Shown: positions 3,188 to 29,191 of the stretch, one piece after another
Numbering within the stretch: position 1 is the stretch's first letter
Layout: the number at the start of each line of letters is the position of its first letter
Translations under genes and position numbers: made by a program
Assembly (NCBI GenBank): GCA_025056655.1
Contig: JANWVL010000042.1
Location: 1-33,161 of the forward strand
Length of the DNA: 33,161 nucleotides
Direction of reading: 5' to 3'
From: Candidatus Methylacidiphilales bacterium
GTDB taxonomy: Bacteria; Verrucomicrobiota; Verrucomicrobiia; Methylacidiphilales; JANWVL01
The notes under the pieces: generated by a model
What the model was told of the DNA's origin: nothing
What the model saw: only the letters and a program-made list of their open reading frames with translations
Database searches by the model: none

Positions 3188-3200
3188 ATCTTGGAGGCCT

Positions 3201-4157: not shown

Positions 4158-4546
4158 ATACCAGCCCTTTTACTATGGGATGGCTTATGGCGATGTTTGA
4201 TCTACCGGTGACAACCGAGGATGAGCGCCGCGCGGCAACCCGCTTCCGAAACGATCTCCTCGAGGACGGTTTTTTGATGATCCAATACAGCGTCTATGCG
4301 CGACCTTGCGTCCACTTTGAGCAAATGCAGAAGCACGCTGAGCGAATTCGAAAAATTGCCCCTCGGGCTGGCAACGTGCGCATTCTCTTCGTTACGGATC
4401 AGCAGTGGGTGAAAAGCATTAACATCGTCGGTGAACGCCCGTTTGAGGATGAGACGAGTGCTTCATCTAATCCTTCTCCAACAAAACATAAAGATCGCCG
4501 AAGCCGACAAAAACATATACCGGGACAGATCGAGTTTTGGGAATAA
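4154..4546 (+). CDS. cas2: CRISPR adaptation protein Cas2
   Basis: Small ferredoxin-fold partner that bridges Cas1 dimers in the spacer-integration complex. I start it at the ATG at 4154, which overlaps the cas1 stop as ATGA. The reading frame is open further upstream but that part lies inside cas1. The 130-residue product has the conserved early Asp in MAMFDLPV (D16), then a QYSVYARPC strand and a VRILFVTDQQW strand typical of type II Cas2. A start at codon 8 or 12 would bring the length closer to the usual 100-110 residues. The C-terminal tail after about residue 95 is Ser/Lys/Arg-rich and ends in GQIEFWE. It is the last cas gene of the operon. Confidence 0.94.
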   Translation: MNTSPFTMGWLMAMFDLPVTTEDERRAATRFRNDLLEDGFLMIQYSVYARPCVHFEQMQKHAERIRKIAPRAGNVRILFVTDQQWVKSINIVGERPFEDETSASSNPSPTKHKDRRSRQKHIPGQIEFWE

Positions 4547-4599
4547 AATCCTGATAGCTCAGCCAAGCTGTGTAGCAAACAAGCACAAACTAAAAGGAC

Positions 4600-4635
4600 G
4601 GCCGCTCTACCGTGCAAGCAGTGGGTAGAGCGGCC
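4600..4635 (-). terminator. candidate minus-strand terminator hairpin downstream of cas2
   Basis: A perfect 12-bp stem pairs 4600-4611 (GGCCGCTCTACC) with 4624-4635 (GGTAGAGCGGCC) around a 12-nt loop. Read on the minus strand, the stem is followed by GTCCTTTTAGTTT, a modest U tract. On the plus strand it is followed by ATAGATTAG with no U tract. It therefore fits the end of a minus-strand transcript better than the end of the cas operon. Either role is inferred from shape alone. Confidence 0.45.
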
Positions 4636-4651
4636 ATAGATTAGTTAAGTC

Positions 4652-4743
4652 TTTCCCCAAGAAGACAGGCTGAACTCTGCTAAAATCGCCTATCTCAAGT
4701 GCTTTTGCAAGTTCTATTCTAACAGCCTGTCTTCTTGGGGAAA
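4652..4743. repeat. long perfect inverted repeat, 21-bp arms, 50-nt loop; possible small RNA
   Basis: The left arm at 4652-4672 starts TTTCCCCAAGAAG and ends GACAGGCTG. The right arm at 4723-4743 is its exact reverse complement. The 50 bases between are AT-rich. There is no U tract on either side and no obvious target-site duplication, so it is neither a simple terminator nor a clear transposon end. It is next to cas2 and just upstream, on the minus strand, of the hairpin at 4600-4635. A tracrRNA or other CRISPR-linked RNA, a cruciform site, or a dispersed palindromic repeat are all possible. Confidence 0.7.
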
Positions 4744-4888
4744 AGGGGGATGATTGGAGGCGGGCTTTGGTTGTGTGAATTAAAAGGGAGTATTGGTTGT
4801 GTTTTATGAGTTATTTGAGATGTGGCGTGCGGGGGGTGATGTTGCCTTGAGTTGCTCGATTGGGGAGGAGTTTGGGTTTTTAAGGGGG

Positions 4889-4929
4889 AAGCCCCAGTGC
4901 AGGGGTTAGGAGCTCCTGCGCTGGGGCTT
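4889..4929 (-). terminator. probable terminator of the 4956-5393 gene
   Basis: Fifteen-base arms at 4889-4903 and 4915-4929 (core AGCCCCAG / CTGGGGCT) pair with a single mismatched position around an 11-nt loop. It begins 27 bases past the stop codon of the minus-strand gene. On the minus strand the hairpin is followed by CCCCCTTAAAAA, so the U tract is weak. The odd position is a G-U wobble if transcribed on the plus strand and a C-A mismatch on the minus strand. Confidence 0.5.
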
Positions 4930-4955
4930 GTGGGTGGGGTTATTGGGGGGATGGT

Positions 4956-5393
4956 TTAGTCTTGGTCTTCGTCTTGTTCTTTTTGGAAGCTTAGGGACCG
5001 CCTTGCCCATCGGCAGGCATTTTCATCCATAGGGATCCAATCCCTATCGAAGGCTTCTAGGCTTTCGAGAGGGTCGGATCGGTCTTCGTCGTGCTCTTGT
5101 AGGAACTTGGTTTCGATAGGGTCATCTTCTCCACGTTCCTGTATTTTTTGGATTCGACTCATCACGTAACGAATGGCTTTTCCGAATCCATCGGGATCCT
5201 CGTGGGGGAGGATCATGATGTCGCGATATGGGAGTTTGTCGAATCCGCTGAGAATGATCGCACAGGCGACCACCGTTCGAGCGTCGTGAACTGCAAGTGC
5301 CCAATTTTCGTTGACCTTGATCAGTTCACTTTTGATTCCTTTTGCGGTTAAAGCCTTTTTGAAGGCTTTGATGGCTTGTAAGTGTTTGCTCAT
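4956..5393 (-). CDS. hypothetical acidic protein, 145 aa
   Basis: I do not recognise this family. The N-terminal part has a basic helix (HLQAIKAFKKALTAKG), then a compact alpha/beta-looking segment with ALAVHDARTVVACAIILSG and DIMILPHEDPDGFGKAIRYVM. The C-terminal third is strongly acidic and ends in EQDEDQD. There is no signal peptide or membrane helix, so it is probably cytosolic. It is a single-gene unit: a promoter lies directly upstream and a hairpin follows the stop. It is convergent with the cas operon, but nothing in it suggests a CRISPR function. The frame is clean and the start ATG at 5391-5393 is the first available. Confidence 0.7.
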   Translation of the reverse strand: MSKHLQAIKAFKKALTAKGIKSELIKVNENWALAVHDARTVVACAIILSGFDKLPYRDIMILPHEDPDGFGKAIRYVMSRIQKIQERGEDDPIETKFLQEHDEDRSDPLESLEAFDRDWIPMDENACRWARRSLSFQKEQDEDQD

Positions 5394-5402
5394 CGGAAAT
5401 CG

Positions 5403-5433
5403 ATTATGCGAGGGTAGGATGATGTTTTGTCAA
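5403..5433 (-). promoter_or_regulatory. sigma70-like promoter for the 145-aa gene, almost leaderless
   Basis: On the minus strand there is a perfect TTGACA (5428-5433) and CATAAT (5403-5408, five of six matches) separated by 19 bases. Transcription would start near 5396, only about three bases before the ATG. The spacing is at the long end of the usual range. Confidence 0.5.
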
Positions 5434-5567
5434 GTGAATGATGGAGGTAGGGGGAGGATGAGGTTGTCTTGGGTGGAGGGTAGGATTGGAGCCTGATCTT
5501 TGGAGGTGGGAGTGGTTGGTTTGAACGGGTAAGAGTTGTCAGCAAAAAGAGGAGGGTGGGCGGTTAG

Positions 5568-7547
5568 CTACGCTCGGATGCCTTGTCGGCGAGCCATTTC
5601 TGCGAAGTGTCCACCAGCAGCGAGGAGTTCGGAGAAGGTGCCTGTCTCGACGATGGCGCCTTTGTGCATGACGATGATGCGGTGCATTTGGGCGAGTGTG
5701 GAGAGGCGGTGGGCGATGGCGATCACAGTGCGTTCCTCGGAAAGGCGGTCTATAGCGGCTTGGACGATGCTTTCGGCTTGGGCGTCGAGGGCGGCTGTGG
5801 CCTCGTCGAGGATGAGGATGGGGGCGTTGCGGATGAAAGCGCGAGCGATGGCGATGCGTTGGCGCTGGCCGCCGGAGAGGCGTGAGCCGCGCTCGCCCAA
5901 GACAGTGTCGTAGCCGTGGGGCATTTGTTCAATGAATTCATGGGCGTAGGCGGCTTTGGCGGCGGCGATGATTTCATCTCTTGTGGCGTGTGGCTTGCCG
6001 AGGGCGATATTTTCAGCGACTGTTTTATTGAAGATGGCGACTTCTTGGCTGACTAGGGCGATGAGGGATCGGATGGTGGAGAATGAGAGATCTTTGATAT
6101 TGATGTCGTCGAATAGAATTTCGCCGGAGGTCGGATCGAAGAAGCGGAGGAGTAGATTGATGAGGGTGCTTTTGCCGCTGCCGCTTTCGCCGGCGATACC
6201 GAGGCGAAGACCTTTGGGGATGGTAAGGGTGATGTTTTTTAGGACTGGCTCTTCATCGTCGTAGGAGAAGGTGACGTTGCGGATCTCGATGGCGCGGGTG
6301 AAATGAGGTAAGGGGACTGGCTCAGCGGGCTCGCGGATTTGGGGTTGTTCGTTGAGGAGGGTGAAGAGACGTTTGACGTTGACACTGCTTTGGGCGAGCT
6401 TGAGGTTAACGCTGGCGAGAGATTTGATGGGGTTAAAGAGTAGGCCGACTGCGAGCATGTAGGTAAGGAGATCCGCGATTTTCATTTCTGTGATGAAGAC
6501 ATACATGAAGATGGTGCCAACGGCGAAGGCCATGATCATTTCGACGAGGGGATTGATGAGGCTGGAGGCTTGGCCTTGCTTCATTGAGTAATGGATGAGC
6601 TTGGCGGAGTGTTTGTCAAACTCATCGAGCTGGTGTTTTTCGAGGTTGTAGGCTTTCACGACGCGGATGTTTCCTAGGGCTTCGAATATTGCGCCGCCTT
6701 GTTTGATGCTGACTTCGATGTTTTTTTCGACGGCTTTTTTGATTTTTTTGGTTAGGACTCGCATGGGGACGGCGACGAATGCGATAAAGAAGAGTGCGAT
6801 GAGGGTGAGCTGCCAATTGATGGCGAACATGGAGATGACGATGCCGAGGATGGTGGCTGGATGTTTTAAGTAGTCGTTTAGTGTGATATTCATGGTGTCG
6901 AAGATCGAGGCTGAATCTTGACCTAGTCGCGTGCTGATGTCGGCGAGGGTTGATTTGTTAAAGAAATTCATGGAGAGCGAGTAGAGTTTTTCGAGGACGT
7001 CGTGGCGGAGGTCGGTGATGAAGCGTTGGCTGACCCAGCGAATGCAGTAGGAGTTAGTGTAATTGAATATGCCTCTGATGAGCACGATTGCTGGAAAGAG
7101 AAGGAGCCCGCCGATGAATTGCCGCCAGTCGAGAGGGCGCCCATACTTGGGGAACCATGGGTCCATGATTTGTCCGAGCTGGTCTGCCCATTTTTGAGCT
7201 TTTGTTTTGAGGTTGTGAAGGGTTTGTTTGAAGGCGATGCGGATGTTATTGAGACGTTGAAGGAGCGGATAGGTAGGTTGGGAGAAATTGTCTATGGAAT
7301 CTTCGTTCATCGCTTGGTTGGGAGAATGTGGGTCTGAGAGAAGGGGGAGAGCCGGGTTGGCAGGGGATAAGGCAGCTTGCGTGGCTGATCGGCTCTCCAT
7401 CCTTGAGCTGAGATATTTCAAAGCCCAGATGGAGGAGACATTCATGGCGGCAAAAAGCAGGCCACTAAGAATTCCGACGGTAAATCGAAACCAGTAGCGC
7501 CTGAGATAAGGCCAACCAAAGATAAGCGTATCCCAAAGAAGTTTCAT
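5568..7547 (-). CDS. MsbA-like ABC exporter (fused membrane and ATPase domains)
   Basis: Half-transporter that would homodimerise in the inner membrane and flip lipid A-core or a similar lipid. I start it at the ATG at 7545-7547, which overlaps the upstream epimerase stop as ATGA. The frame extends to 7583 but only inside that gene. The product has 659 residues. A first membrane helix (about 17-40) is followed by an unusually long polar segment of roughly 110 residues before the next helix; MsbA normally has a short loop there. The ATPase domain has Walker A (GESGSGKST, about 450), the signature LSGGQRQRIAIARA (about 557), Walker B ILILDEATAALD, and an AHRLST switch. The epimerase partner hints at a glycolipid or glycan cargo. 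Confidence 0.88.
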   Translation of the reverse strand: MKLLWDTLIFGWPYLRRYWFRFTVGILSGLLFAAMNVSSIWALKYLSSRMESRSATQAALSPANPALPLLSDPHSPNQAMNEDSIDNFSQPTYPLLQRLNNIRIAFKQTLHNLKTKAQKWADQLGQIMDPWFPKYGRPLDWRQFIGGLLLFPAIVLIRGIFNYTNSYCIRWVSQRFITDLRHDVLEKLYSLSMNFFNKSTLADISTRLGQDSASIFDTMNITLNDYLKHPATILGIVISMFAINWQLTLIALFFIAFVAVPMRVLTKKIKKAVEKNIEVSIKQGGAIFEALGNIRVVKAYNLEKHQLDEFDKHSAKLIHYSMKQGQASSLINPLVEMIMAFAVGTIFMYVFITEMKIADLLTYMLAVGLLFNPIKSLASVNLKLAQSSVNVKRLFTLLNEQPQIREPAEPVPLPHFTRAIEIRNVTFSYDDEEPVLKNITLTIPKGLRLGIAGESGSGKSTLINLLLRFFDPTSGEILFDDINIKDLSFSTIRSLIALVSQEVAIFNKTVAENIALGKPHATRDEIIAAAKAAYAHEFIEQMPHGYDTVLGERGSRLSGGQRQRIAIARAFIRNAPILILDEATAALDAQAESIVQAAIDRLSEERTVIAIAHRLSTLAQMHRIIVMHKGAIVETGTFSELLAAGGHFAEMARRQGIRA

Positions 7548-13559: not shown

Positions 13560-13910
13560 ATGGCTCGAACTACAAACGCCCCAGCATCACGCGAACGTCG
13601 CAAGCGCATGCTGAAAGCCGCAAAGGGCTTCCGCGGCAACCGTAGCAAGCTCTTCCGCTATGCGAAAGATGCCTTGATGAAGGCCAAATACTGGTCCTAT
13701 CGCGATCGAAAAACACGCAAAAGAAATTTCCGTTCCCTCTGGATTATTCGCATCAACGCTGCTTGCCGCTCTCTGGGCATCACTTACAACCGCTTTATCG
13801 AGCAGCTCAAAAAATCCAAGATTTCCATCGATCGCAAAATCCTCGCTGATCTGGCCGTGCGCGAGCCTAAAGCCTTCGAAGCGATCGTAGCCGCGGCTAA
13901 AGCGAATTAA
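13560..13910 (+). CDS. rplT: 50S ribosomal protein L20
   Basis: Binds 23S rRNA early in large-subunit assembly. The 116 residues have the family's basic N-terminal half ([21 protein letters not shown], with SRERRKRML before it) and the globular end ([20 protein letters not shown]). The length is normal. In most bacteria infC and rpmI sit directly upstream; here a yyaL-type gene does, so the usual infC-rpmI-rplT order is broken. pheS follows 63 bases downstream. I see no clear L20-like autoregulatory leader in the 43-base gap upstream. Confidence 0.97.
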
Positions 13911-13973
13911 ATTCCCTCACCACTCCCCTCTCAGACGGGTCCCCTGCTTCATAGCCATCTCATTCCCAGCCTC

Positions 13974-14999
13974 ATGAATTCTCAACTTGAAGCGCTCACC
14001 CAAGAAATTCTCACCGCGATTGAGCAAGCCAAAGACGCCAAAGCACTCGACTTTATTCGGACGAAATATTTCTCAAGACAAGGAGCGTTCTCACTTTTAC
14101 GACAGACGATTACCCAGCTTCCTCCCGAGGAGCGCCGGGCTTTTGGACAAGCCGTAAATGCTGCCTACGAGAAACTACAATCAGCCCTATCTTCACGCGC
14201 CGAAAGTTTTGCTCCACTCGAATCGCTGTTTCCTCCGGATCCTACCCTACCGCCTCGGACATACCCTCAAGGCTCGCTTCACCCCGTGTTAACGCTCCTT
14301 TCACGGTCGGTAGAAATCTTTCGCTCCTTAGGTTTCGCTTTAGCCGATGGCCCAGAGGTGGAATATGAATATTTCAACTTCGATGCTTTAAATACCCCGC
14401 CAGACCATCCAGCTCGCAACGAGCAAGACACCTTTTATATCGATCCCCCCGAAAAAGCCCATCCGAAGTGGGGCCGACGTCTACTCCGCACGCAAACTTC
14501 GCCGATACAAATTCGCGTCATGCAATCCCAAAAGCCGCCAATCCGCATAATTGCCCCAGGGCGCTGCTATCGCCGTGACGAGATCGATGCCACCCACTCT
14601 CTCTCATTTCATCAAATCGAAGGCCTATACGTGGATCAAAACGTCACCTTAGCCCAGCTCAAAGGCACACTCGAATACTTCTTCCGCTCCCTTTTGGGCA
14701 ACGATCTAGAGTTCCGTTTTCGCCCGCACTTTTTTCCATTCACAGAACCGAGTTTTGAAGTGGACTGCGCCCGATCGGACACCGTTTACAAAGGCAAAAA
14801 ATGGCTAGAAATCTGCGGCTGTGGTATGGTGCATCCTAAAGTTTTGGAAGAGTCTGGAATTGATCCCGAGAAATATACAGGCTTTGCATTCGGATTTGGC
14901 CTCGAGCGAATCGCAATGCAGATCCACGGCGTGACCGATCTGCGGATGTTTACCGAAAATGATATCCGCCTCTTAAGCGCGCTTACTCCACCAATTTGA
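13974..14999 (+). CDS. pheS: phenylalanyl-tRNA synthetase alpha subunit
   Basis: Catalytic subunit of the class II (alpha-beta)2 synthetase that charges tRNA-Phe. The N-terminal coiled-coil region (about 1-85) is followed by the catalytic core: FNFDALNTPPDHPARN, the motif 2 loop RCYRRDEIDATHS (about 195), GLYVDQNVTLAQLKG, PHFFPFTEPSFEVD, and motif 3 GFAFGFGLERIAM (about 302). The 341 residues match the normal size. pheT normally follows directly; here a lipoprotein gene does, so the beta subunit must be encoded elsewhere. It probably shares a transcript with rplT. Confidence 0.97.
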   Translation: MNSQLEALTQEILTAIEQAKDAKALDFIRTKYFSRQGAFSLLRQTITQLPPEERRAFGQAVNAAYEKLQSALSSRAESFAPLESLFPPDPTLPPRTYPQGSLHPVLTLLSRSVEIFRSLGFALADGPEVEYEYFNFDALNTPPDHPARNEQDTFYIDPPEKAHPKWGRRLLRTQTSPIQIRVMQSQKPPIRIIAPGRCYRRDEIDATHSLSFHQIEGLYVDQNVTLAQLKGTLEYFFRSLLGNDLEFRFRPHFFPFTEPSFEVDCARSDTVYKGKKWLEICGCGMVHPKVLEESGIDPEKYTGFAFGFGLERIAMQIHGVTDLRMFTENDIRLLSALTPPI

Positions 15000-19590: not shown

Positions 19591-19664
19591 GGTCCCGTAG
19601 CTCAGTAGGATAGAGCAGGGCTTTCCTAAAGCCAAGGTCGCGCGTTCGATTCGCGCCGGGACCA
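19591..19664 (+). tRNA. tRNA-Arg (anticodon CCU)
   Basis: A 74-nt cloverleaf. The acceptor GGTCCCG pairs with CGGGACC. The D stem is GCTC/GAGC, the anticodon loop is TTCCTAA (CCT reads AGG), and the T arm is GCGCG-TTCGATT-CGCGC. The anticodon stem has a G-A mismatch at its outermost pair. No CCA is encoded. It follows pyrD by 46 bases and faces a convergent tRNA-Ala one base away. Confidence 0.95.
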
Positions 19665-19665
19665 A

Positions 19666-19738
19666 TGGAGCCTAGGGGATTCGAACCCCTGACCTCCTCA
19701 ATGCCATTGAGGCGCTCTACCAACTGAGCTAAGACCCC
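19666..19738 (-). tRNA. tRNA-Ala (anticodon GGC)
   Basis: A 73-nt cloverleaf on the minus strand. The acceptor GGGGTCT pairs with AGGCTCC through one G-U pair. The D arm contains GCTCAGTTGGTAGAGC, the anticodon arm is CCTCA-ATGGCAT-TGAGG (GGC reads GCC), and the T arm is CAGGG-GTTCGAA-TCCCCT-like. No CCA is encoded. Its 3' end is one base from the 3' end of the tRNA-Arg. The AT-rich 217 bases upstream (19739-19955) must hold its promoter; I see no strong match. Confidence 0.95.
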
Positions 19739-19955
19739 ATATCTCAATGAAAAACTAAAGACTATTTAGTTCACCATCCACCAATTGCGCAACCTATTTT
19801 TCACATAACTTATTCAGACAAATAAAAATTCAACTAAATAATCCATTAAAAGAAATAAAAATTTAACACGCATTAAAATTTTATTTATCTAAGGTCACTG
19901 TATTCAAAACAAACTTCAAAAACCTCTGACTCACAACTAATTTGCAGCCACCGTC

Positions 19956-21071
19956 ATGCCTAGAACCAGGATTATACTCATACTCCCTCTTGTCCAAGCT
20001 CTTCTTGACAGCTTCATCCCCACTCATGCTCAGACTCACACACAATGGAAGCAAGCATTATCTCCTCACCCTTGGTCATTTCCCAAAGACCACGGCAATC
20101 ATCCCGAATATCGCACAGAATGGTGGTATTTCACTGGTAACCTGACTGATTCAAAACAAAAAAACTATGGCTACCAGCTAACATTCTTTCGACAAGGGGC
20201 AAGACGAGATACCCCTCCTCTCAAAAGCCGATGGACATTCCGCGACCTATACTTTGCACACTTTGCTATATCTGATCCATCAATTCCGCTTTTTCTGAAG
20301 GCCCAAAAAATTTCAAGAGCGGCACTTGATACTGCTGGATCCGCTTTAGATGCCCTCCATGTGTGGATTGATGACTGGCGAGCTACCGAAATTAACCCAT
20401 CTCAGTTCAGGCTCTCAGCCGACGCAGGAAACTTTGCTCTCGATTTATTATTAACAACCAAAAAACCGCCTATTCTTCATGGACGAGATGGACTGAGCCA
20501 AAAATCCACCCGCAAAGGATATGCATCGCATTATTTTTCATACACTCGTTTACTCACCCACGGCGTCATACGAATACATAACGTCGAATATCCCGTAAGC
20601 GGCACCAGTTGGTTCGACAAAGAGTTCAGCTCATCCATGTTAGATACAGACCAAGTAGGATGGGATTGGTTCTCAATCCAATTCGACAACGACTGTGAAC
20701 TCATGCTCTACCTGCTCCGTCATTCTGACGCCTCTACATCCTATTCAGGTGGCACTTGGGTTGAATCCGACGGGCAAAAAATAGATATTTCCCATCGCCA
20801 ATTTTCCGTGATTCCACGCAGAGAATGGACGAGCCCCCACACTCAGATCACCTACCCATCTGGATGGACAATTCGAGTGCCCTCATTAAATCTCGAAATA
20901 GAATTCCTACCCCGCACACCAGACCAAGAGCTCTCGTTTCAACTTGCAAATCGTCCCTTAAACTACTGGGAAGGCGCCTGCGTCGCCCAAGGCATATACA
21001 AAGGCAAACCCATCCGTGGTCATGGTTTTGCAGAGCTTACAGGCTACGACGGCATGCGTCCCCTACGCTGA
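19956..21071 (+). CDS. secreted AttH/CrtC-like lipocalin-domain protein
   Basis: A 371-residue protein with a signal peptide (hydrophobic IILILPLVQALLDSFI, probable cut near THAQ at 24-27). The mature part begins with the family's signature PKDHGNHPEYRTEWWYFTGN (about 43-62). Later family motifs are GYQLTFFRQ, YFAHFAISDP, YASHYFSYTRL, GTSWFDKEFSS and GWDWFSIQFDN. The family covers predicted carotenoid hydratases and AttH, an accessory protein of an ABC transporter. Hydratase activity is not implied, and no carotenoid genes are nearby. The gene lies 21 bases before an ABC-2 permease gene, so a role in handling an exported hydrophobic or glycan substrate is a reasonable inference. Confidence 0.85.
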   Translation: MPRTRIILILPLVQALLDSFIPTHAQTHTQWKQALSPHPWSFPKDHGNHPEYRTEWWYFTGNLTDSKQKNYGYQLTFFRQGARRDTPPLKSRWTFRDLYFAHFAISDPSIPLFLKAQKISRAALDTAGSALDALHVWIDDWRATEINPSQFRLSADAGNFALDLLLTTKKPPILHGRDGLSQKSTRKGYASHYFSYTRLLTHGVIRIHNVEYPVSGTSWFDKEFSSSMLDTDQVGWDWFSIQFDNDCELMLYLLRHSDASTSYSGGTWVESDGQKIDISHRQFSVIPRREWTSPHTQITYPSGWTIRVPSLNLEIEFLPRTPDQELSFQLANRPLNYWEGACVAQGIYKGKPIRGHGFAELTGYDGMRPLR

Positions 21072-21092
21072 CCGAGCTATGATAAATCTATC

Positions 21093-21860
21093 ATGAACTC
21101 CCTGGCTCACTACGTCCATCTCATCCGTTTGTGCACACATGCACAATTAAAGGCTGAAACTCACCGCTCCTACCTCGGTTACTTCTGGTGGATACTTGAA
21201 CCACTCCTCAACACTTTTCTTTTTTACTCCCTTTTCTTTCTTTTCCTAGGCAAACGCACCCAACAATACCTTGAATTCCTCCTCGTCGGCACCCTCCTCT
21301 GGCAATGGATTCAAAGCACCTTGCAACTTGCTACCACCTCGATACTCGAAAAACCTCACCTCCTTCGTCAAATTAAAATCCCACTCTCCCTCTTCCCTAT
21401 CACCAAGACATTAGCCAACACCACAAAATTTATCATCATATATCTAATCTTGCTCGTTTATCTGATCCTGCAAAACTTCCTCCCCTCACCTATTTGGCTT
21501 TTGCTGGTCCCCTTACTCCTTTTGCATACGTTACTCATTTTCAGCTTTGCCCTTCCCCTGGCCCTTCTGACTCCATTCGCTCCCGACATCAAAACCATAC
21601 TTGACGCGCTCCTGCGCTTTCTGATGTTGCTTTCGGGCATCTTCTTTACTGTTGAATCCATACCCGCACATCTTCTGCCCTATTTTTATGCCAATCCTTT
21701 TGCTCACATACTTGAAACCCATCGTTCAATTCTCCTTCACAACCAAATCCCTCCCCCTCACCACTGGATAAACTCAGCTCTATTCATTCTCCTGCTTCTT
21801 CCAATCGGCCTAGCATTGCTTCGTTTTGCGGACGGCCGCATCCCAAAAATCCTAAAGTAA
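21093..21860 (+). CDS. ABC-2 type permease, Wzm/polysaccharide-exporter-like
   Basis: A 255-residue inner-membrane permease with about six hydrophobic helices. The start region LKAETHRSYLGYFWWILEPLLN matches the amphipathic interface helix of O-antigen and teichoic-acid exporters (Wzm/TagG). The later RQIKIPLSLFPITKTLAN and the final FADGRIPKIL are also family-like. The partner ATPase follows after eight bases. With that ATPase it should move an undecaprenyl-linked or other glycan, or a glycolipid, across the inner membrane. The upstream lipocalin and downstream HlyD-like adaptor are not standard Wzm/Wzt neighbours. No glycosyltransferase is in the cluster. Confidence 0.88.
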   Translation: MNSLAHYVHLIRLCTHAQLKAETHRSYLGYFWWILEPLLNTFLFYSLFFLFLGKRTQQYLEFLLVGTLLWQWIQSTLQLATTSILEKPHLLRQIKIPLSLFPITKTLANTTKFIIIYLILLVYLILQNFLPSPIWLLLVPLLLLHTLLIFSFALPLALLTPFAPDIKTILDALLRFLMLLSGIFFTVESIPAHLLPYFYANPFAHILETHRSILLHNQIPPPHHWINSALFILLLLPIGLALLRFADGRIPKILK

Positions 21861-21868
21861 CATCTTCC

Positions 21869-22576
21869 ATGGAAACAGTGGCCCCTTACCTCATTCAAGC
21901 CAACAAAATCAGTCTCTACTATCGCATCCAGAAAGGTTTTATCCGCGGCTTCAAAGCCCGATTCCAAGCCCTTCACGAAGTCTCTCTCACCCTTCGATCA
22001 GGAGACCGGATCGGCCTCATCGGTCGCAATGGTGCTGGTAAAACCACGTTACTACAAATTCTTGCCCGCATCATACGCCCCGATAAAGGCACTCTTACGA
22101 CAGCCCCACACATACGCACCCTCTTACTCTCGATCGCAGCAGGTTTTGAAAGCTCTCTCACAGGCCGCCAAAACGCTTTATTAAGCGCTCTCTATCTAGG
22201 GCTCGACCACGCAACTGCCACATCCCGGCTGCCCGAAATCCAATCATTCTCTGAGCTCGAAGACTTCTTCGACCAACCTCTTTACACCTACTCATCTGGC
22301 ATGGTTTCCCGATTAGGCTTTGCCGTCGCACTACAGACGGATCCAGATGTCCTACTCATTGATGAAATTCTCTCAGTCGGTGATCATCACTTCCAAGAAA
22401 AATCCAAAAACGCCTTACTCCATCGCCTTCGCCCCTCACAAGCAGTTTTGATCGCAACTCACGACCTGTCACTCCTACAACAAATCACCACACACACTCT
22501 CTGGCTAGAAAATGGACGCGTCCGATATTTTGGGCCGACCCCCGAAACTCTCGACCTTTACCAGAAAAATTCCTAG
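21869..22576 (+). CDS. ABC transporter ATPase, Wzt/TagH-like
   Basis: The 235-residue nucleotide-binding subunit of the exporter. It has Walker A GRNGAGKTT (about 52-60), the polysaccharide-exporter signature YSSGM (about 140), Walker B VLLIDEILSVGD (about 160-170) and the switch ATHDLS. These are characteristic of Wzt, KpsT and TagH. Wzt proteins that bind a capped O-antigen carry a C-terminal carbohydrate domain; this one stops after the ATPase domain, so it is more like KpsT-type ATPases. Its start ATG is eight bases after the permease stop, pointing to tight co-translation. Confidence 0.9.
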   Translation: METVAPYLIQANKISLYYRIQKGFIRGFKARFQALHEVSLTLRSGDRIGLIGRNGAGKTTLLQILARIIRPDKGTLTTAPHIRTLLLSIAAGFESSLTGRQNALLSALYLGLDHATATSRLPEIQSFSELEDFFDQPLYTYSSGMVSRLGFAVALQTDPDVLLIDEILSVGDHHFQEKSKNALLHRLRPSQAVLIATHDLSLLQQITTHTLWLENGRVRYFGPTPETLDLYQKNS

Positions 22577-22599
22577 CCTTACCTCCCCCAACACTCACC

Positions 22600-23760
22600 A
22601 TGTGCCGCATACTTCGAAATCCCATTTCCCTCACTCTTCTCACACTCATTCTGCTTTACTGCCTCACACGCTCATTTCCCAACATTCCCCCGTTTTCTAT
22701 CCTTGCCTCTATCTTCCCAGGCATCCCCTCCGCACAAGTCATTCAGCCAACCATAGGACGCGCCATCTCAGCAGTCTATGCGACGGTCACAGTCGAACCA
22801 ACCCAACAGACTCTTATCCGCACCCGTCATTTCGGCCACGTTCGCGCCATCCACGTCTCCCCAGGTCAAAGCGTCACTCAAGATGCCCCTCTTGCTGACA
22901 TCATTGACGAAACTACCTACCGTGAAATTGAACTCGCCAACGCTGAGCTAGCCCAAGCTCGCCTCCGCCACTCTCTTGGCCCTCCATCCCTCCCACTCCT
23001 CAAAAACAAAGAAGCCGAACTCAAAAAACTCAAAGCTCTTCTCGATGCAGGAAACATCGCCCCAATCGAGTATCAGCGCGCAGAAAACGAACTCCGTTCC
23101 CTTCAAGATCGCGTAAAAATCGAAACCGCCTCTCTAGATCACGACCTTCAAGTCGCCGAGCAACGCCTCAAAACTCAAATCCAAGAAAAAAACCAGATGA
23201 CCCTCCGATCGCCACTCAATGGCACAGTGCTAGAAATCTACGCCACCCTCGGGGAATTCCTCCCCCCACAGTCACAAATCATGCGCATCGGCTCTAGCAC
23301 CCTGCACCTCACGGCCTTTATCAACGAAGAAGATATAGGCCGCCTCAAACCCAAAATGAAGGGTAACGTCAAACTCTTCGCCTACCCCGAACTCACCCTT
23401 ACTGCCACTCTCACTCAAATCCTCCCCCAAGCCGAAAATCAATCCTATCGCGCACTTTTCACATTGGATGAACCGCCTCCTATGCTCCTCCCTGGCATGA
23501 CCGGCGAAATTAACATCATCACTGATACCCGCGAGCAAGCACTCCTCATCCCGACACGCGCACTCCTTCCCGGCCCAGCTGTTTACACAGTCTCCCCATC
23601 AGGTCGCATCCGCCTTACCCCAGTAACGATCGGCTTCCGTTCCATCGAAACCACGGAAATCCTCTCTGGCCTCACGCCGAACGACCGTCTCATCGCCGAT
23701 GAGCTTCACCGTTACGCCCCTGGCCAAGTCGTGCGCATCATCAAACAACATACACGATAA
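22600..23760 (+). CDS. HlyD/RND-type periplasmic adaptor protein
   Basis: A 386-residue membrane-fusion protein. It has an N-terminal membrane anchor (ISLTLLTLILLYCLT, about 13-27), a lipoyl half-motif (GHVRAIHVSPGQSV), a coiled-coil hairpin (about 105-200, rich in E, L, K and Q), the second lipoyl half (RSPLNGTVLEIYATLGEFL) and beta-barrel plus membrane-proximal domains (LPGMTGEI, LIPTRALL). Such adaptors link an inner-membrane transporter to an outer-membrane channel. They usually partner with RND pumps or MacB-type permeases, whereas this one follows a Wzm/Wzt-like pair by 23 bases. No outer-membrane TolC gene is in the window. Confidence 0.88.
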   Translation: MCRILRNPISLTLLTLILLYCLTRSFPNIPPFSILASIFPGIPSAQVIQPTIGRAISAVYATVTVEPTQQTLIRTRHFGHVRAIHVSPGQSVTQDAPLADIIDETTYREIELANAELAQARLRHSLGPPSLPLLKNKEAELKKLKALLDAGNIAPIEYQRAENELRSLQDRVKIETASLDHDLQVAEQRLKTQIQEKNQMTLRSPLNGTVLEIYATLGEFLPPQSQIMRIGSSTLHLTAFINEEDIGRLKPKMKGNVKLFAYPELTLTATLTQILPQAENQSYRALFTLDEPPPMLLPGMTGEINIITDTREQALLIPTRALLPGPAVYTVSPSGRIRLTPVTIGFRSIETTEILSGLTPNDRLIADELHRYAPGQVVRIIKQHTR

Positions 23761-23838
23761 ATAAAAAGCCGGATTGCTCCCTCGAAAGCATAAAGTCAAT
23801 TTCAAAGCTAAGAATTTTGGATTAAAATCCCTCTCAAG

Positions 23839-24957
23839 TTGAAAATCATATACCGCTTACTCTACCTTCAACTCTTCAAAGTCACGACTATTGCAATAGC
23901 AGTCGTCACGACACTATTCGTTTTGCTGAACGTATTAAAAGACGTCATCGCCCTATTGATGAATAGCGTCGTCCCCGCACTCACCATTGCACAAATGGTG
24001 CTGTTACTAGTCCCATTCGTCTTAATGTTTACCATTCCATGGGGATTCTTAATCGCAGTCCTTCTCGTCTTTGGACGTCTTTCCCAAGATAGAGAAATAC
24101 TAGCTCTCAAATCAAGTGGTATCAGCTTAGTCGTGCTGGCTGCTCCCACAATTATCCTAGCTCTCGCAGCCTGCCTGTTGCTCTTGTATATCAACACGAC
24201 GCTTTCACCTGCTGCACGATTTGCTTTTAAGCAGATCGTAGCCGAAGTTCTCCGCAAAGACCCGACAGCTTTATTCGTGCCTGGAAAATCTATCGAACAA
24301 TTCCCTGGCTATCGCATCTACATCAGAGAGAAAAACGGTCCGCACCTCACAGACATACATCTCTGGACCATCGATACAGAAGGCAATCCAATTCGATCTC
24401 TACGAGCAGACCACGGCCGATTAGAACTCGACCAAAAAAATGAACGGATAATCATTCACTTGCACAATTCACGTCAAGAAGAACGACGCCGAGGAGACTC
24501 TGCCGACACTGCTTACGTCGTGCCTGGCGTCAGCGCAGAATATATACCATTGACTCTTTCTCTTGAAGGTCTTTTCAAAAAGGCTGAGCGCAAACTATCA
24601 CCCAGCAATATGACTATCTCCCAACTCAGGCGACATCTGGCTTCGCATGCTTCTTCCCTTGATCCCTCCTCAATCGCAGCGATCCTCACAGAGGCCAATA
24701 AACGGCTTGCCTTAGCTTTTGCCCCACTCACATTTACGCTCATCGCTATCCCGCTTGCCATACAGACTCGAAGAAAGGAAACCTCTACGGGAGTTGCGCT
24801 CAGCTTAGCAATCGTGCTGACTTACTTCTTCATGCTAGTGCTCGCAGAAGCCTTCAAGCGCAACATCGCACTTCATCCCGAGATGCTTGTGTGGCTACCC
24901 AACATCATATTTCAAGCACTAGGAGTCTTTTTACTGATTCGGGTCAATCGCCTTTAG
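23839..24957 (+). CDS. LptF/LptG family permease (YjgP/YjgQ)
   Basis: A 372-residue inner-membrane permease of the family that extracts LPS for the Lpt bridge. Three N-terminal helices (within 1-115) carry the family motif FGRLSQDREILALKSSGIS. A periplasmic beta domain follows (about 130-265), then three C-terminal helices (within 280-370). The start is a TTG at 23839 (MKIIYRLLYLQLFKV, a normal family start); no in-frame ATG precedes it and no Shine-Dalgarno site is visible. The second permease and LptB are not nearby. It lies 78 bases after the adaptor gene and may share its transcript, which would link the cluster to outer-membrane lipid or glycan traffic. LptF cannot be told from LptG here. 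Confidence 0.85.
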   Translation: MKIIYRLLYLQLFKVTTIAIAVVTTLFVLLNVLKDVIALLMNSVVPALTIAQMVLLLVPFVLMFTIPWGFLIAVLLVFGRLSQDREILALKSSGISLVVLAAPTIILALAACLLLLYINTTLSPAARFAFKQIVAEVLRKDPTALFVPGKSIEQFPGYRIYIREKNGPHLTDIHLWTIDTEGNPIRSLRADHGRLELDQKNERIIIHLHNSRQEERRRGDSADTAYVVPGVSAEYIPLTLSLEGLFKKAERKLSPSNMTISQLRRHLASHASSLDPSSIAAILTEANKRLALAFAPLTFTLIAIPLAIQTRRKETSTGVALSLAIVLTYFFMLVLAEAFKRNIALHPEMLVWLPNIIFQALGVFLLIRVNRL

Positions 24958-24969
24958 TATAGATTAGTA

Positions 24970-26679
24970 TCAACTCTTAAACAGTTGTCCCATTTTTTGG
25001 CCCAGAATTTTTGAGGCAAGTCCAAGACAAATCGCCAAGAGAATCATAGCGAGCACTCCCATCGCGCATGCAATCGCCGGAGCAGCAGGAATTATACGGC
25101 CTAGCAATGCGTAGATGGCTTTGGTGATAGGATAAAATGGCGTTTCCTGAGCTAATATCATTCCCTTCGAGACATCTAGCATCGCAAAAGAAAAGGTCAT
25201 AATTGTGCCGGCAATCAAATTCGCATAGATCAGAGGTAACGTAATACGCCAGAGGGTTGTCAGAGGCTTAGCACCCAGATTGGCTGAGGCTTCCTCTAGC
25301 GTGACAGAAGTTTGTTGCAACCCTGCAACAGCCGCTCGCACAATATATGGCAGACGATGCACTGCGTAAGCAATGACGAGCAGTAATGTTGGATTCTGTC
25401 GCGGATCGAGCCACTCCACTCCGTCGAAAGGTGGCCGAGTAAAGGCAACGTAGTAAGCAAAGGCCGTGACGAGCCCTGGCAACGCCAATGGAAGCATGGA
25501 GAGCACATCCAAAACGATTTTGCCTTTGAATTGTTGGCGAACGAGAAGATATGCAATAATCACGCCTAAAATCAGATCTAAAAGCGAGGAAAACAAGGCA
25601 TATTGAAGCGAGTTTTTTACGGACATCGCCGTCATATGCATGCTAAAAATTTCTGCGTAGTTGGCCACTGTCCATTCCTGAGGCAACACATTCATGAACC
25701 ACCGTTGAGAGAATGAATTGATAACCACACCCAAGTGAGGAAGAATAGAAATGAAAATGACAAGTCCCACCAGACCAGTGACAATCCAGCCCATCAAGGG
25801 AGAAAAACGTTTAATGTCATCATAGCTTGCGCTTCGCGCCATCATCGCGTAGTTGCCCTCCCCCAGACGTTTCCCCAGCACGAAAAAGATCGTTACTACG
25901 ACTAAAGCCAAGACTACAAGCGCATAACCGATGGGATTATCGGACTGAGTCACCAAATTAAAAATTTGCGTCGGCACCGTCGTTTGAAAATCAAACATCA
26001 GCGGCACCCCAAGATCAGTAAACGCAAAGACAAAAACAATTGCGCATCCAGAAAAAATTCCCGGAGTCGCGAGAGGAACTGTGACCGTTCGAAAAATCCT
26101 CAAGCCCCCTGCACCCAGATTTCGCGCGGCATCGCGCAAGGAGGGATCAACGTTCGCCATCGCGGCTTGCACGCTCAGAAACATGATCGGATAGAGATGA
26201 AGCACTTCCAGTATGATAATCCCAGCAAATCCCCCTTCACCTAACCAGTCCGGTGGATGCTGCAAATCGACTATGCCTAGCTCTGCAAGTAGTAAATTCA
26301 GACTACCAAAACGCGCGAATATTTGCTTCAACCCAATAGCGCCAACGAATGGCGGAAGGATTAAGGGCATCAAAATTGCCGAACTCCAAAAAAATTTTAA
26401 CGGAAAATCCCAACGAAGAAAAAGGTTGGCTAAAGGTAAACTCAACACCAGGCAGATTGCTGTAGTCCACCCCGCAATAGCGATCGAATTCAGAAAACAA
26501 TCCCGATAAAAAGGATTAGAAAAAATTAACTCAAAATATTCCAGCGATAGACGCGTAACAACTTCACCTTCCTTGACTGACTGCACCCAAAAAGCACCCT
26601 GAAGAATTGTAAAGAGGGGATAAATAAGAAAAAAACCAAAAAACAAATAAAGCAGTGCGAGTAGGCCATATTTTTTCAT
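24970..26679 (-). CDS. Fe(III)-type ABC transporter permease, fused double domain
   Basis: Inner-membrane permease of about 569 residues with two tandem BPD-type halves. The first half has DAARNLGAGGLRIFRTVTVPLATPG-like EAA-loop sequence (about residues 183-208) and the second EEASANLGAKPLTTLWRITLPL (about 472-493), the sites that contact the ATPase. This two-in-one form is typical of FbpB/AfuB-type iron(III) and related importers. I take the ATG at 26677-26679 rather than the preceding GTG; GAGGGG lies eight bases upstream. It is the last gene of a minus-strand operon after the binding-protein and ATPase genes. Its stop is 12 bases from the convergent LptF/G gene, with no hairpin between. 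Confidence 0.9.
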   Translation of the reverse strand: MKKYGLLALLYLFFGFFLIYPLFTILQGAFWVQSVKEGEVVTRLSLEYFELIFSNPFYRDCFLNSIAIAGWTTAICLVLSLPLANLFLRWDFPLKFFWSSAILMPLILPPFVGAIGLKQIFARFGSLNLLLAELGIVDLQHPPDWLGEGGFAGIIILEVLHLYPIMFLSVQAAMANVDPSLRDAARNLGAGGLRIFRTVTVPLATPGIFSGCAIVFVFAFTDLGVPLMFDFQTTVPTQIFNLVTQSDNPIGYALVVLALVVVTIFFVLGKRLGEGNYAMMARSASYDDIKRFSPLMGWIVTGLVGLVIFISILPHLGVVINSFSQRWFMNVLPQEWTVANYAEIFSMHMTAMSVKNSLQYALFSSLLDLILGVIIAYLLVRQQFKGKIVLDVLSMLPLALPGLVTAFAYYVAFTRPPFDGVEWLDPRQNPTLLLVIAYAVHRLPYIVRAAVAGLQQTSVTLEEASANLGAKPLTTLWRITLPLIYANLIAGTIMTFSFAMLDVSKGMILAQETPFYPITKAIYALLGRIIPAAPAIACAMGVLAMILLAICLGLASKILGQKMGQLFKS

Positions 26680-26694
26680 CACCTTATCCCCTCA

Positions 26695-27693
26695 TCATGC
26701 AGTTACTGGATATTTTCTTAAACGATCCTCAGGAACTGAAAAACGAACAGCAGCCCCTTCTTCAAAGTAGCGCGATGTCCAGGCTTTTACGGTTTCTCGT
26801 TCCTCTGTCTCAAGCAATAATTCATTCTTGCTGCCGAGATATGTCCGTCGTTTCACACGTGCAGCTATTCCCCCGTGAGCATGATCGACATCTACAACTA
26901 CAACATCCTCAGGCCTAAAACCGACCTGTTCACCCTGATTCGCTCCAAATATCCGGCCTAGAACTGTGTGAGATTGAAAGAAGTTCATCTCTCCAATAAA
27001 ATTCGCCACAAAAGCCGTCTTGGGATAATTATAAACTTCGTATGGCGTCCCAATTTGTTCGATCTTGCCGGCATGCATGACGCCAATCCGTGAAGCAAGA
27101 GAAAGAGCCTCTTCTTGATCATGAGTCACGTAAAGGCTGGTAATACCAGTCTCCGCCTGCAGTCGCTTAATTTCATCTCGCATTTCAATTCGTAACTTTG
27201 CATCAAGGTTAGAGAGAGGTTCGTCAAAAAGAAGCAAGTCAGGCCTAACCACGATAGCACGAGCAAGAGCGACGCGCTGCTGTTGCCCTCCCGAAAGGCT
27301 AGTCGGCTTGCGATCCTTTAGTGCTGCAAGCTTAACCTGTTCTAAAGCCTCCATCACACGGCGAGTTAGCTCAGGTTCCTTAATTTTTCTCACGCGAAGA
27401 CCATAGGCGACATTTTCAAAAAGCGTCATATGAGGCCAGACTGCATAGTTTTGAAAAACCAGCGCAGTGTTCCTCGAATGAGGAGGCACATCATTCATCC
27501 GCCGATCACCAAAATAAATATCCCCCTCATCTGGACTATAGAAGCCCGCGAGCATCCTTAAGATCGTTGTTTTCCCACAGCCAGAGGGACCTAGTAAAAA
27601 GAACATTTCCCCTGAGCGGAGTGAAAAATCGACCCCTTTAACGATCGGGTTGCCATCAAAACGCTTTACAATCCCTCGTAAATGTATGTCCAT
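26695..27693 (-). CDS. ABC transporter ATPase, FbpC-like
   Basis: The 332-residue ATPase of the importer. It has Walker A GPSGCGKTT, the Q-loop QNYAVWPHMT, the signature LSGGQQQRVALARA, Walker B LLLFDEPLSNLDAKLR and the switch VTHDQEEAL. A C-terminal TOBE-like regulatory domain begins near GEMNFFQSHTVLG and contains GFRPEDVVVV. This architecture is shared by iron(III), spermidine and sulfate importers; the binding-protein and fused permease partners favour the iron type. It lies 12 bases before the permease start and 16 bases after the binding-protein stop, so all three genes are one operon. Confidence 0.92.
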   Translation of the reverse strand: MDIHLRGIVKRFDGNPIVKGVDFSLRSGEMFFLLGPSGCGKTTILRMLAGFYSPDEGDIYFGDRRMNDVPPHSRNTALVFQNYAVWPHMTLFENVAYGLRVRKIKEPELTRRVMEALEQVKLAALKDRKPTSLSGGQQQRVALARAIVVRPDLLLFDEPLSNLDAKLRIEMRDEIKRLQAETGITSLYVTHDQEEALSLASRIGVMHAGKIEQIGTPYEVYNYPKTAFVANFIGEMNFFQSHTVLGRIFGANQGEQVGFRPEDVVVVDVDHAHGGIAARVKRRTYLGSKNELLLETEERETVKAWTSRYFEEGAAVRFSVPEDRLRKYPVTA

Positions 27694-27709
27694 ATCGGTT
27701 GGTTCCTAA

Positions 27710-29113
27710 CTACTCTTGGCCCTTGCAAATGTTCGTCATGTGCATCCCCCCCTCATCTCCAATAACTGCAAACTTAGTCGCAACTTCTATAACTTCCTGA
27801 TATCTCCTAACAGCACCTTCCATCCATTCATTCGCCATGCGACGCGCACGCACTTTGTCTTTCCTCCAATAAGAAGCCAGCTCAATCGCTTCCGATTCAG
27901 TGACGAACGGCTTTTTGATTTTACGCAAAAGCTCTTGCCTCACTACTTCATCTTGGACCTTTGATGCAGCTCGCCACGCCCTGCGTAACCAACGATGCAC
28001 ATCTATGATGGTCTGGCCAATAAGATCGTTCAAAACATGCCAACGCCTACTGCCTAATTCACTATTGTAACGAAATCCAATCTCACCCTCCCCAACCTGA
28101 AAAGGATTGAAAGGAACTAAAAGTTTACTCAAATCGTTCGGATACAGCTTGGGTAACACCCCCATGCGCGTAATATTGAAACGCAAAGCTCCACCTTCAG
28201 TGCCCTTAGGTTTCATCCAAAGCTTTTGCCCTTTTTCAGATAAAACAAATTCTACAAAAAGTTTTGCAGCTTCTAAATTCGGCGCGCCCCGCAAAATTGC
28301 AATGCCATCAGGCGTGACCACAGATACCCCCCGCGGAATCCGATAGATAACGTTTTCCTCCCCTAAGAAACTCTGTTGAGTCAATCCATTAATATCTATC
28401 GTCACGGCAAAAGCTGCATCACCCGCTGACACCTCTTTCACCGGTGCAGAGCTATTCTGTAGAAAAGAACGCACGTTTCCACTCATCCCGTAGATCACTC
28501 CCCACCCCTCATCCCACCCATAAGCCTGAAGAATAATCTCGTAAATCATATGCACACTTCCACTTTTTCGTGGATCTGTAGAACTCACCCAACCCGCCAG
28601 ACGACTATCTGCTAGATCTCTCCAAGTCTTCACTTCAGGCAGCCCGAGTCGTTGTGTCACTCGACGGTTCTCAAGAATTCCAAATGAAGACAATGCCGTC
28701 CCGTAGTAAGCATAATCCTCACCGATGATTCTCACTCCAGAAAAGCTTTCCGGCAAATCCTTCAATACCTCATCCGACACTCGGTAAGGATATAATAAAC
28801 CTCTTCGATGTAAGTTCTCAAAAGGATCCATTCCCCCACCAAAAAAAACGTCCATTCCACAACTATCCGGCGTCGCTTGATAAGTAGCCACCAAAGCTTT
28901 TTCTATCTGTGAAGCCCCCCCTAAATCTCGCCAGCGCACGCGAATCGCCTTTCCTACGTTTTCCTGATACCAAGCCTCAAATGCACGGCCAAATTCGTAT
29001 TGAATCCCTTCCCAGTGCGGCGACACGATGATCAACTCGTTCTCTTTTGAGCAAAGCCCGCTCACGACAGAGAACACCGCCACAAGACATAGCCTTACTC
29101 TAGAGCACCACAT
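27710..29113 (-). CDS. extracellular solute-binding protein of the Fe(III)-type importer
   Basis: A periplasmic binding protein of about 467 residues. A signal peptide (hydrophobic LCLVAVFSVVSGLCS) precedes LIIVSPHWEGIQYEFGRAFEAW, the family's first strand. Later TWRDLADSRLAGWV, SGSVHMIYEI and VTPDGIAILRGAPNLEAAKLFVEFVLSEKGQ are typical of group 1 iron-type binding proteins. The SGLC site is a poor lipobox. I take the ATG at 29111-29113, not the TTG just upstream. It is longer than FbpA (about 340) because of an extra C-terminal helical segment from about residue 370, rich in Arg, Trp and Glu. The cargo could be iron or another small anion or metal complex. Confidence 0.85.
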   Translation of the reverse strand: MWCSRVRLCLVAVFSVVSGLCSKENELIIVSPHWEGIQYEFGRAFEAWYQENVGKAIRVRWRDLGGASQIEKALVATYQATPDSCGMDVFFGGGMDPFENLHRRGLLYPYRVSDEVLKDLPESFSGVRIIGEDYAYYGTALSSFGILENRRVTQRLGLPEVKTWRDLADSRLAGWVSSTDPRKSGSVHMIYEIILQAYGWDEGWGVIYGMSGNVRSFLQNSSAPVKEVSAGDAAFAVTIDINGLTQQSFLGEENVIYRIPRGVSVVTPDGIAILRGAPNLEAAKLFVEFVLSEKGQKLWMKPKGTEGGALRFNITRMGVLPKLYPNDLSKLLVPFNPFQVGEGEIGFRYNSELGSRRWHVLNDLIGQTIIDVHRWLRRAWRAASKVQDEVVRQELLRKIKKPFVTESEAIELASYWRKDKVRARRMANEWMEGAVRRYQEVIEVATKFAVIGDEGGMHMTNICKGQE

Positions 29114-29191
29114 CAAAACTTATTTTCCGCCGTCGCCCATCGGTTAGTCAAACACACGTCTAATTCCGAAGCGTAAAAATCCAGAAACAAA

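Follow-up and report, generated by a model that had tools for sequence, protein, structure and literature searches.

A five-gene run in a Methylacidiphilales bacterium as a probable mosaic of four transport machines, with an HlyD adaptor and a Wzm/Wzt pair as the likely remnant of a locus that many Verrucomicrobiota retain

Several of the envelope transport systems described so far resemble the genes considered here, and what is said of them is taken from excerpts of the published accounts. DevBCA-HgdD of cyanobacteria exports the heterocyst glycolipid by means of a MacB-like FtsX permease, a separate ATPase, an HlyD-type adaptor and a TolC-type channel (PMC8277102); the Klebsiella O1/O2-type O-antigen exporter pairs an ATP-binding cassette (ABC) permease of the ABC-2 type, Wzm, with a short ATPase, Wzt, devoid of the carbohydrate module (PMC11231755); for proteins of the AttH type, a linkage to LolD-like ABC transporters is on record (PMC2954199); and in Caulobacter the sphingolipid genes adjoin envelope-transport genes, namely LptC2/F2/G2 (PMC11324152). 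A run of five genes encoding an AttH-like lipocalin, a Wzm/Wzt-like pair, an HlyD-type adaptor and an LptF-type permease (Table 1) was analysed in a stretch of 33,161 nucleotides, hereafter called the window, from Candidatus Methylacidiphilales bacterium (Verrucomicrobiota; assembly GCA_025056655.1, contig JANWVL010000042.1, here C42). The genome containing it (2.44 Mb, 178 contigs) is 96% complete and 3.1% contaminated. The sample comprised a single genome of the family to which the window belongs, 59 relatives from the same order and class-wide sets of about 208 genomes; a strong HlyD orthologue is present in 12 of the order relatives and lacking in the other 47, and 33 HlyD loci were collected from the class outside the order.

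A preliminary description of this DNA had taken the five genes for the parts of one machine. Their identity, order, strand and spacings (21, 8, 23 and 78 bases, from AttH to LptF) proved to be as described there; the order AttH-Wzm-Wzt-HlyD-LptF, on the other hand, was seen in none of the other genomes (order relatives and class loci were examined), so that the gene order is not a conserved one. The explanation that we prefer, with a probability of about 0.72, is that the run is a mosaic drawn from four machines, in which HlyD would belong to an exporter associated with Wzm/Wzt, its cargo being a glycosylated and possibly sphingoid lipid, with AttH and LptF as bystanders.

The HlyD open reading frame (ORF) matches NCBIfam RND_mfp (TIGR01730) with 133.2 bits (cut-off 94.9) and HlyD_3 with 66.5 bits (cut-off 22.2), which places it among the HlyD/MacA-type adaptors; its closest solved protein in the PDB is MacA (E=8e-9), and its score against the DevB subfamily (TIGR02971) is 46.6 bits, below the cut-off of 129. 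In the relatives, the permease that goes with HlyD is an FtsX protein and not Wzm: it adjoins HlyD in 33/33 of the class loci and in 12/12 of the order relatives, is about 415 residues long and, in the three examples scanned, carries MacB_PCD and FtsX domains. The ATPase of this exporter was recognised in 31 of the 33 class loci and OEP channel genes in 13, a count obtained with queries that may miss remoter OEPs. Four genomes (G005, G006, G007 and G012) harbor the full operon, OEP1-OEP2-HlyD-permease-ATPase. The permease of the window's own genome scores 173 bits against NCBIfam lolCE and 27 against MacB. The exporter is similar to MacAB-TolC in the best solved relative of its adaptor and in the domains of its permease, and differs from it in that the ATPase is a separate protein and that, among the NCBIfam models, LolCE rather than MacB fits the permease best. 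In the HlyD tree (where one row, L202, stems from an ORF read in the wrong frame and has a branch of 9.8, and from which G119, locus L251, was left out), the window's protein clusters with those of G004, G029, G048 and G028 (support 97/81). Judged by these sequence comparisons, the window's HlyD is the predicted orthologue of the adaptor in an OEP-OEP-HlyD-LolCE/MacB-like permease-ATPase exporter. An assignment to an RND (resistance-nodulation-division) pump was considered and discarded, the orthologues in the relatives standing always with the FtsX permease; two large inner-membrane ORFs of this genome, RND-pump-like by eye only, stand with OEP genes on contigs C32 and C94.

The second line of evidence is the linkage between this exporter and Wzm/Wzt. 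When the window's own Wzm and Wzt were used as queries, one or the other was found within about 10 kb of the HlyD exporter in 16 of the 33 class regions and in none of 19 control regions (Fisher p=1.3e-4); the controls were LptF regions from 19 of the 33 out-of-order genomes, L268 (a 10-base placeholder) being excluded. Further queries, some of them drawn from the tested regions themselves, bring the count to 17/33. The pair is embedded in the HlyD region of three of the 12 order relatives (G002, G004 and G029), at about 11-13 kb from HlyD in the last two, and in G048 the exporter ATPase gene directly precedes Wzm, on another contig than HlyD. The two also co-occur: among the order relatives, the window's Wzm type is present in 6/12 of those with HlyD and in 0/47 of those without (p=2e-5), and the corresponding class-wide figures are 7/41 and 2/166 genomes (p=2e-4). 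The association of a membrane-fusion protein with Wzm/Wzt, to which the preliminary description had drawn attention, thus recurs well outside this strain. Among 34 Wzm loci of named genomes, where a Wzt match follows Wzm in 32, that of a Puniceicoccaceae single-cell genome (L175) shows OEP-HlyD-permease-ATPase beside Wzm-Wzt; no exporter genes were seen in the examined stretches of the remaining, mostly gammaproteobacterial, loci (all but L175, L172 and L182). The best reading of these patterns is that the Wzm/Wzt and HlyD neighbourhood of the window represents a putative remnant of a locus that has been retained by many Verrucomicrobiota.

The arrangement of the linked genes varies. In loci of the families f12 and f14 (L203:12556-14952, L204, L206, L208 and L211), Wzm is convergent to the exporter ATPase gene and divergent from Wzt, the pair being unusually split across strands; the Wzt of the split pair in L203 carries Wzt_C. 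In the family f20 (L216-L249), about half of the loci have a different Wzm subfamily and a Wzt next to this exporter, in L217 together with a GDP-mannose 4,6-dehydratase gene, which suggests that in this family the glycan genes have been swapped while the exporter has stayed.

The window's pair itself is an adjacent ABC2_membrane permease and ATPase. Profile searches with Wzm gave TarG (6jbh, 9e-26) and a Wzm-type protein (6m96, 3e-11), and strong homologues (E<=1e-38) occur in 6/59 order relatives. In the ATPase, Walker A (GRNGAGKTT), the signature (YSSGM), Walker B and the H-loop can be recognised by eye; its top NCBIfam model is that of a galactan exporter (151 bits, cut-off 400). The preliminary description was right that the carbohydrate-binding domain is missing, as a profile search found no Wzt_C in this protein; this is not unusual, the Klebsiella O1/O2 transporter being likewise devoid of it (PMC11231755), and the absence was not counted as an anomaly. 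Unlike that transporter, the window's pair has no glycosyltransferase gene beside it among the window ORFs scanned (such genes are present in G004, G029 and G002), and it scores far under the family cut-offs.

The clue to the cargo comes from a gene similar to those for serine palmitoyltransferase (SPT), which shares the HlyD region in ten loci, i.e., 7/33 class regions against 0/19 controls (p=0.039) and 3/12 order relatives. The best PDB match of the SPT-like protein is a serine palmitoyltransferase (3a2b, 293 bits), the best entry named only 2-amino-3-ketobutyrate CoA ligase reaching 206, and the genes of the seven class regions are 58-62% identical. In G004, G029 and G048 the gene adjoins OEP1, divergent from it, and is accompanied by a fusion of the ACP (acyl carrier protein)-FabZ type, i.e., an ACP-dehydratase; G004 and G029 add a ketosynthase, a glycosyltransferase of family GT28 similar to the synthases of diglucosyl-diacylglycerol and MGDG (monogalactosyldiacylglycerol), and GT4 enzymes, followed by Wzt-Wzm. 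The class loci at times contain an acyltransferase and glycosyltransferases. Both an ACP-dehydratase fusion (C72:3383-4231, 44% identity) and an SPT-like gene, the latter truncated by the ends of contigs C93 and C133 (56-61% identity), are present in this genome as well. The company of the SPT-like enzyme, with the ACP-dehydratase fusion, ketosynthase and glycosyltransferases of some relatives, makes a glycosylated amino-acyl lipid of the sphingoid type the most likely cargo, in agreement with the lipid or glycolipid that the preliminary description had envisaged. It might be argued that the HlyD-FtsX-ATPase-OEP exporter is instead a drug or lipopeptide pump, without lipid cargo, which forms a stable border of O-antigen-like loci: MacAB pumps carry macrolides among other cargoes (PMC8277102), and the linked Wzm/Wzt belong to several subfamilies, one of them with the GDP-mannose dehydratase of L217. 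This alternative appears rather unlikely, since it leaves unexplained both the SPT-like gene in ten loci and the permease's preference for the LolCE model over MacB. As a separate observation, the SPT-like gene of L209 is accompanied by genes for two radical-SAM (S-adenosylmethionine) proteins, one B12-binding and the other of the SPASM type, as well as for an acyltransferase and a glycosyltransferase.

Table 1. Positions of the five genes of the run (in the window) and of SPT-like genes near the exporter in several Verrucomicrobiota families (in the respective loci)
Feature	Position	Strand	Remarks
AttH-like secreted double-lipocalin (CrtC and Lipocalin_9)	19956-21071	+	371 aa; N-terminus signal-peptide-like by eye
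Wzm-like ABC-2 permease	21093-21860	+	255 aa; ABC2_membrane 59 bits
Wzt-like ATPase without C-terminal carbohydrate-binding domain	21869-22576	+	235 aa; ABC_tran 73.9 bits
HlyD/MacA-type periplasmic adaptor	22600-23760	+	386 aa; HlyD_3/HlyD_D23, RND_mfp
78-base gap	23761-23838	+	promoter-like match at 23801-23828, before LptF
LptF-type lipopolysaccharide-export permease	23839-24957	+	372 aa, TTG start; LptF_LptG 210.5 bits
SPT-like gene near OEP-OEP-HlyD-FtsX-ATPase exporter	L207:14439-15644		
SPT-like gene near the same type of exporter	L208:5235-6434		
SPT-like gene near the same type of exporter	L209:13707-14891		
SPT-like gene near the same type of exporter	L213:13501-14730		
SPT-like gene near the same type of exporter	L117:1767-3077		

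The lipocalin keeps other company in the relatives. The AttH ORF carries the CrtC (187.7 bits) and Lipocalin_9 (129.4 bits) domains of the AttH type, its best PDB match being 2ich, a 'putative AttH' (E=8e-55). AttH is present in 34/59 order relatives, and in 19 of 29 of their AttH loci it lies directly downstream of a double-FtsX permease homologous to one of 852 residues, with four further loci where it stands beside another ABC ATPase. The lipocalin together with its ABC transporter forms a set that goes by the name AttEFGH. Neither Wzm, Wzt, HlyD nor LptF was found in the flanks of about 1.5 kb of the 29 AttH loci or in 11 wider AttH regions; conversely, AttH was seen neither in the 33 class HlyD regions nor in the 34 Wzm loci of named genomes. 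Besides, AttH tends to avoid HlyD, occurring in 4/12 HlyD-bearing and 30/47 HlyD-lacking order genomes (p=0.10). In the window's genome no FtsX permease adjoins AttH; its copy of the double-FtsX permease is located at C171:28829-31387 and the likely ATPase on C45, the latter being nearest to the ATPases that adjoin the AttF-like permease. Compared with the NE1406 system (2ich), the lipocalin has the same two domains, and its homologues are linked to an ATPase and a double-FtsX permease; the difference is that here it is separated from both. On the best reading, AttH belongs, as its lipocalin, to an ABC system of the AttE/AttF type and was moved here by rearrangement; the role of periplasmic carrier for the run was rejected on account of the missing linkage and of its tendency to be absent where HlyD occurs. 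Just upstream of the AttH gene, a back-to-back pair of genes for tRNA-Arg (CCT) and tRNA-Ala (GGC) (window 19591-19739) occupies opposite strands, with zero gap.

LptF matches PF03739 with 210.5 bits (cut-off 27.9) and stays below the NCBIfam LptF equivalog cut-off (168.7 bits against 230). Strong matches exist in 57/60 order and 195/208 class genomes, for the most part as a single strong orthologue per genome, so that the gene is near-universal, and it is best read as the ordinary lipopolysaccharide exporter permease, a bystander in the run. A dedicated role was rejected for the same reason, and because LptF lies at no more than 6 kb from HlyD in just two of the 12 order relatives (G018 and G048) and in 0/33 class loci. 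Directly after LptF, on the other strand, the window contains a complete-looking ABC importer (24970-29116), with a two-domain permease, an ATPase and a binding protein, in one piece.

These data bear on the single machine, in which Wzm/Wzt would move a lipid, HlyD would dock on Wzm, AttH would serve as the periplasmic carrier and LptF would assist. The gaps of 8-23 bases, the class-wide linkage of HlyD with Wzm/Wzt and the lipid-binding type of the AttH fold (2ich) are all consistent with it. Nevertheless, such a machine is very improbable: AttH was near Wzm/Wzt or HlyD in no other locus (0/29 short-flank, 0/11 wider AttH, 0/33 HlyD and 0/34 Wzm loci) and is missing in 8/12 HlyD-bearing order relatives, the FtsX permease stays with HlyD in all the 45 loci of the relatives, and LptF is found nearly everywhere. 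Neither AttH nor LptF can thus be retained as the partner that the preliminary description saw in them.

As in the case of AttH, the partners of HlyD are encoded elsewhere in this genome: OEP1-OEP2 on C22, the FtsX permease at C55:52613-53872 and the ATPase at 83 kb of C55, inside the exporter's ATPase clade (support 100/99). The outer-membrane partner sought by the preliminary description exists, therefore, as the two OEP genes that precede HlyD in the relatives, here away from the run; adaptor and permease do not share an operon in this genome. With the exporter parts of HlyD and the partners of AttH all on other contigs, the operons of at least two exporters have come apart. Assembly breaks were rejected as the sole cause of the scattering, since a contig of 139 kb carries the permease at about 52 kb and the ATPase at about 83 kb, and 9 kb separate HlyD from the end of its own contig; a mis-binned contig, C22 above all, may be involved, given the spread of guanine-cytosine content in the examined stretches (0.43-0.57). 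The window holds a further sign of broken-up operons, in that, at 13560-14999 (+ strand), pheS comes after the gene for ribosomal protein L20 and has no pheT downstream of it.

Such scattering raises the question of whether rearrangement has simply juxtaposed orphan genes, the proximity of HlyD to Wzm/Wzt in this genome being coincidental as well. The two other scattered operons and the pheS gene lying behind L20 without pheT would fit a run assembled by pure chance, which is nonetheless improbable, given that HlyD and Wzm/Wzt lie together in 16/33 loci of the class and in 0/19 controls and also co-occur among genomes. Tight gene spacing alone can mislead where the operons of a genome have broken up. 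A single transcript is plausible from the spacing of the genes, and LptF, with the promoter-like match in the 78-base gap before it, may have a transcript of its own; promoter-like patterns (9, where shuffling predicts 5.6 +/- 2.6) and terminators (3, against 4.3 expected) are not above chance. At the contig end, the window contains a row of genes for a Cas9-like protein (HNH_4 and RuvC_III), Cas1 and Cas2 (119-4546, + strand); no regular CRISPR array was found in positions 1-5600.

Several points weigh against the mosaic with a lipid exporter linked to Wzm/Wzt. The window's HlyD has no permease, OEP or lipid-biosynthesis genes alongside, so that its assignment to the exporter rests on orthology, and the window's own family is represented by one genome only. 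No Wzm/Wzt match was found within the examined stretch in 17/33 class HlyD loci, and the exporter-linked Wzm/Wzt belong to several subfamilies, some with Wzt_C, hence the exporter may simply stand at the edge of glycan loci. The SPT-like proteins score 369-396 bits against the NCBIfam SPT equivalog cut-off of 640 and also resemble BioF. Lastly, the Fisher p-values reported above ignore the shared ancestry of related loci and overstate the evidence.

Within the mosaic, the transport route might be outlined as follows. Both the synthesis of the lipid and its glycosylation would take place at the cytoplasmic face; Wzm/Wzt, acting on a lipid-linked glycan or glycolipid, or another flippase, would move the lipid across the inner membrane; the LolCE/MacB-like FtsX permease, with its ATPase, would extract it; and HlyD, together with the two OEP channel proteins, would pass it toward the surface. 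The assembly would share with DevBCA-HgdD the types of its four components and, if the cargo is predicted correctly, the export of a glycolipid; it differs in the two OEP genes of the relatives' operon, in the SPT-like gene and Wzm/Wzt nearby and in the window's HlyD falling below the DevB cut-off. Compared with the Caulobacter cluster, where sphingolipid genes likewise adjoin envelope-transport genes, the relatives studied here have a tripartite OEP-HlyD-FtsX exporter rather than a second Lpt set (PMC11324152, excerpt).

A bolder proposal, possible although we hold it to be doubtful, is that OEP1-OEP2-HlyD-permease-ATPase works with a Wzm/Wzt flippase in an undescribed trans-envelope route by which Verrucomicrobiota would export a glycosylated lipid, either sphingoid or of a related amino-acyl kind; the window would keep an adaptor-flippase remnant of its locus. 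No published account of a locus combining the exporter, Wzm/Wzt and an SPT-like gene was found among the titles and abstract openings searched, and an excerpt of a 2024 paper states that the inner-to-outer-membrane transfer of bacterial sphingolipids is not known (PMC11324152). The locus uniting a tripartite exporter, a glycan or glycolipid flippase and an SPT-like gene, kept in several Verrucomicrobiota families, is a concrete and testable candidate for sphingolipid transport; if the proposal is true, these bacteria would have a tripartite solution for the transit of sphingolipids to the outer membrane, unlike Caulobacter, for which a second Lpt set has been proposed.

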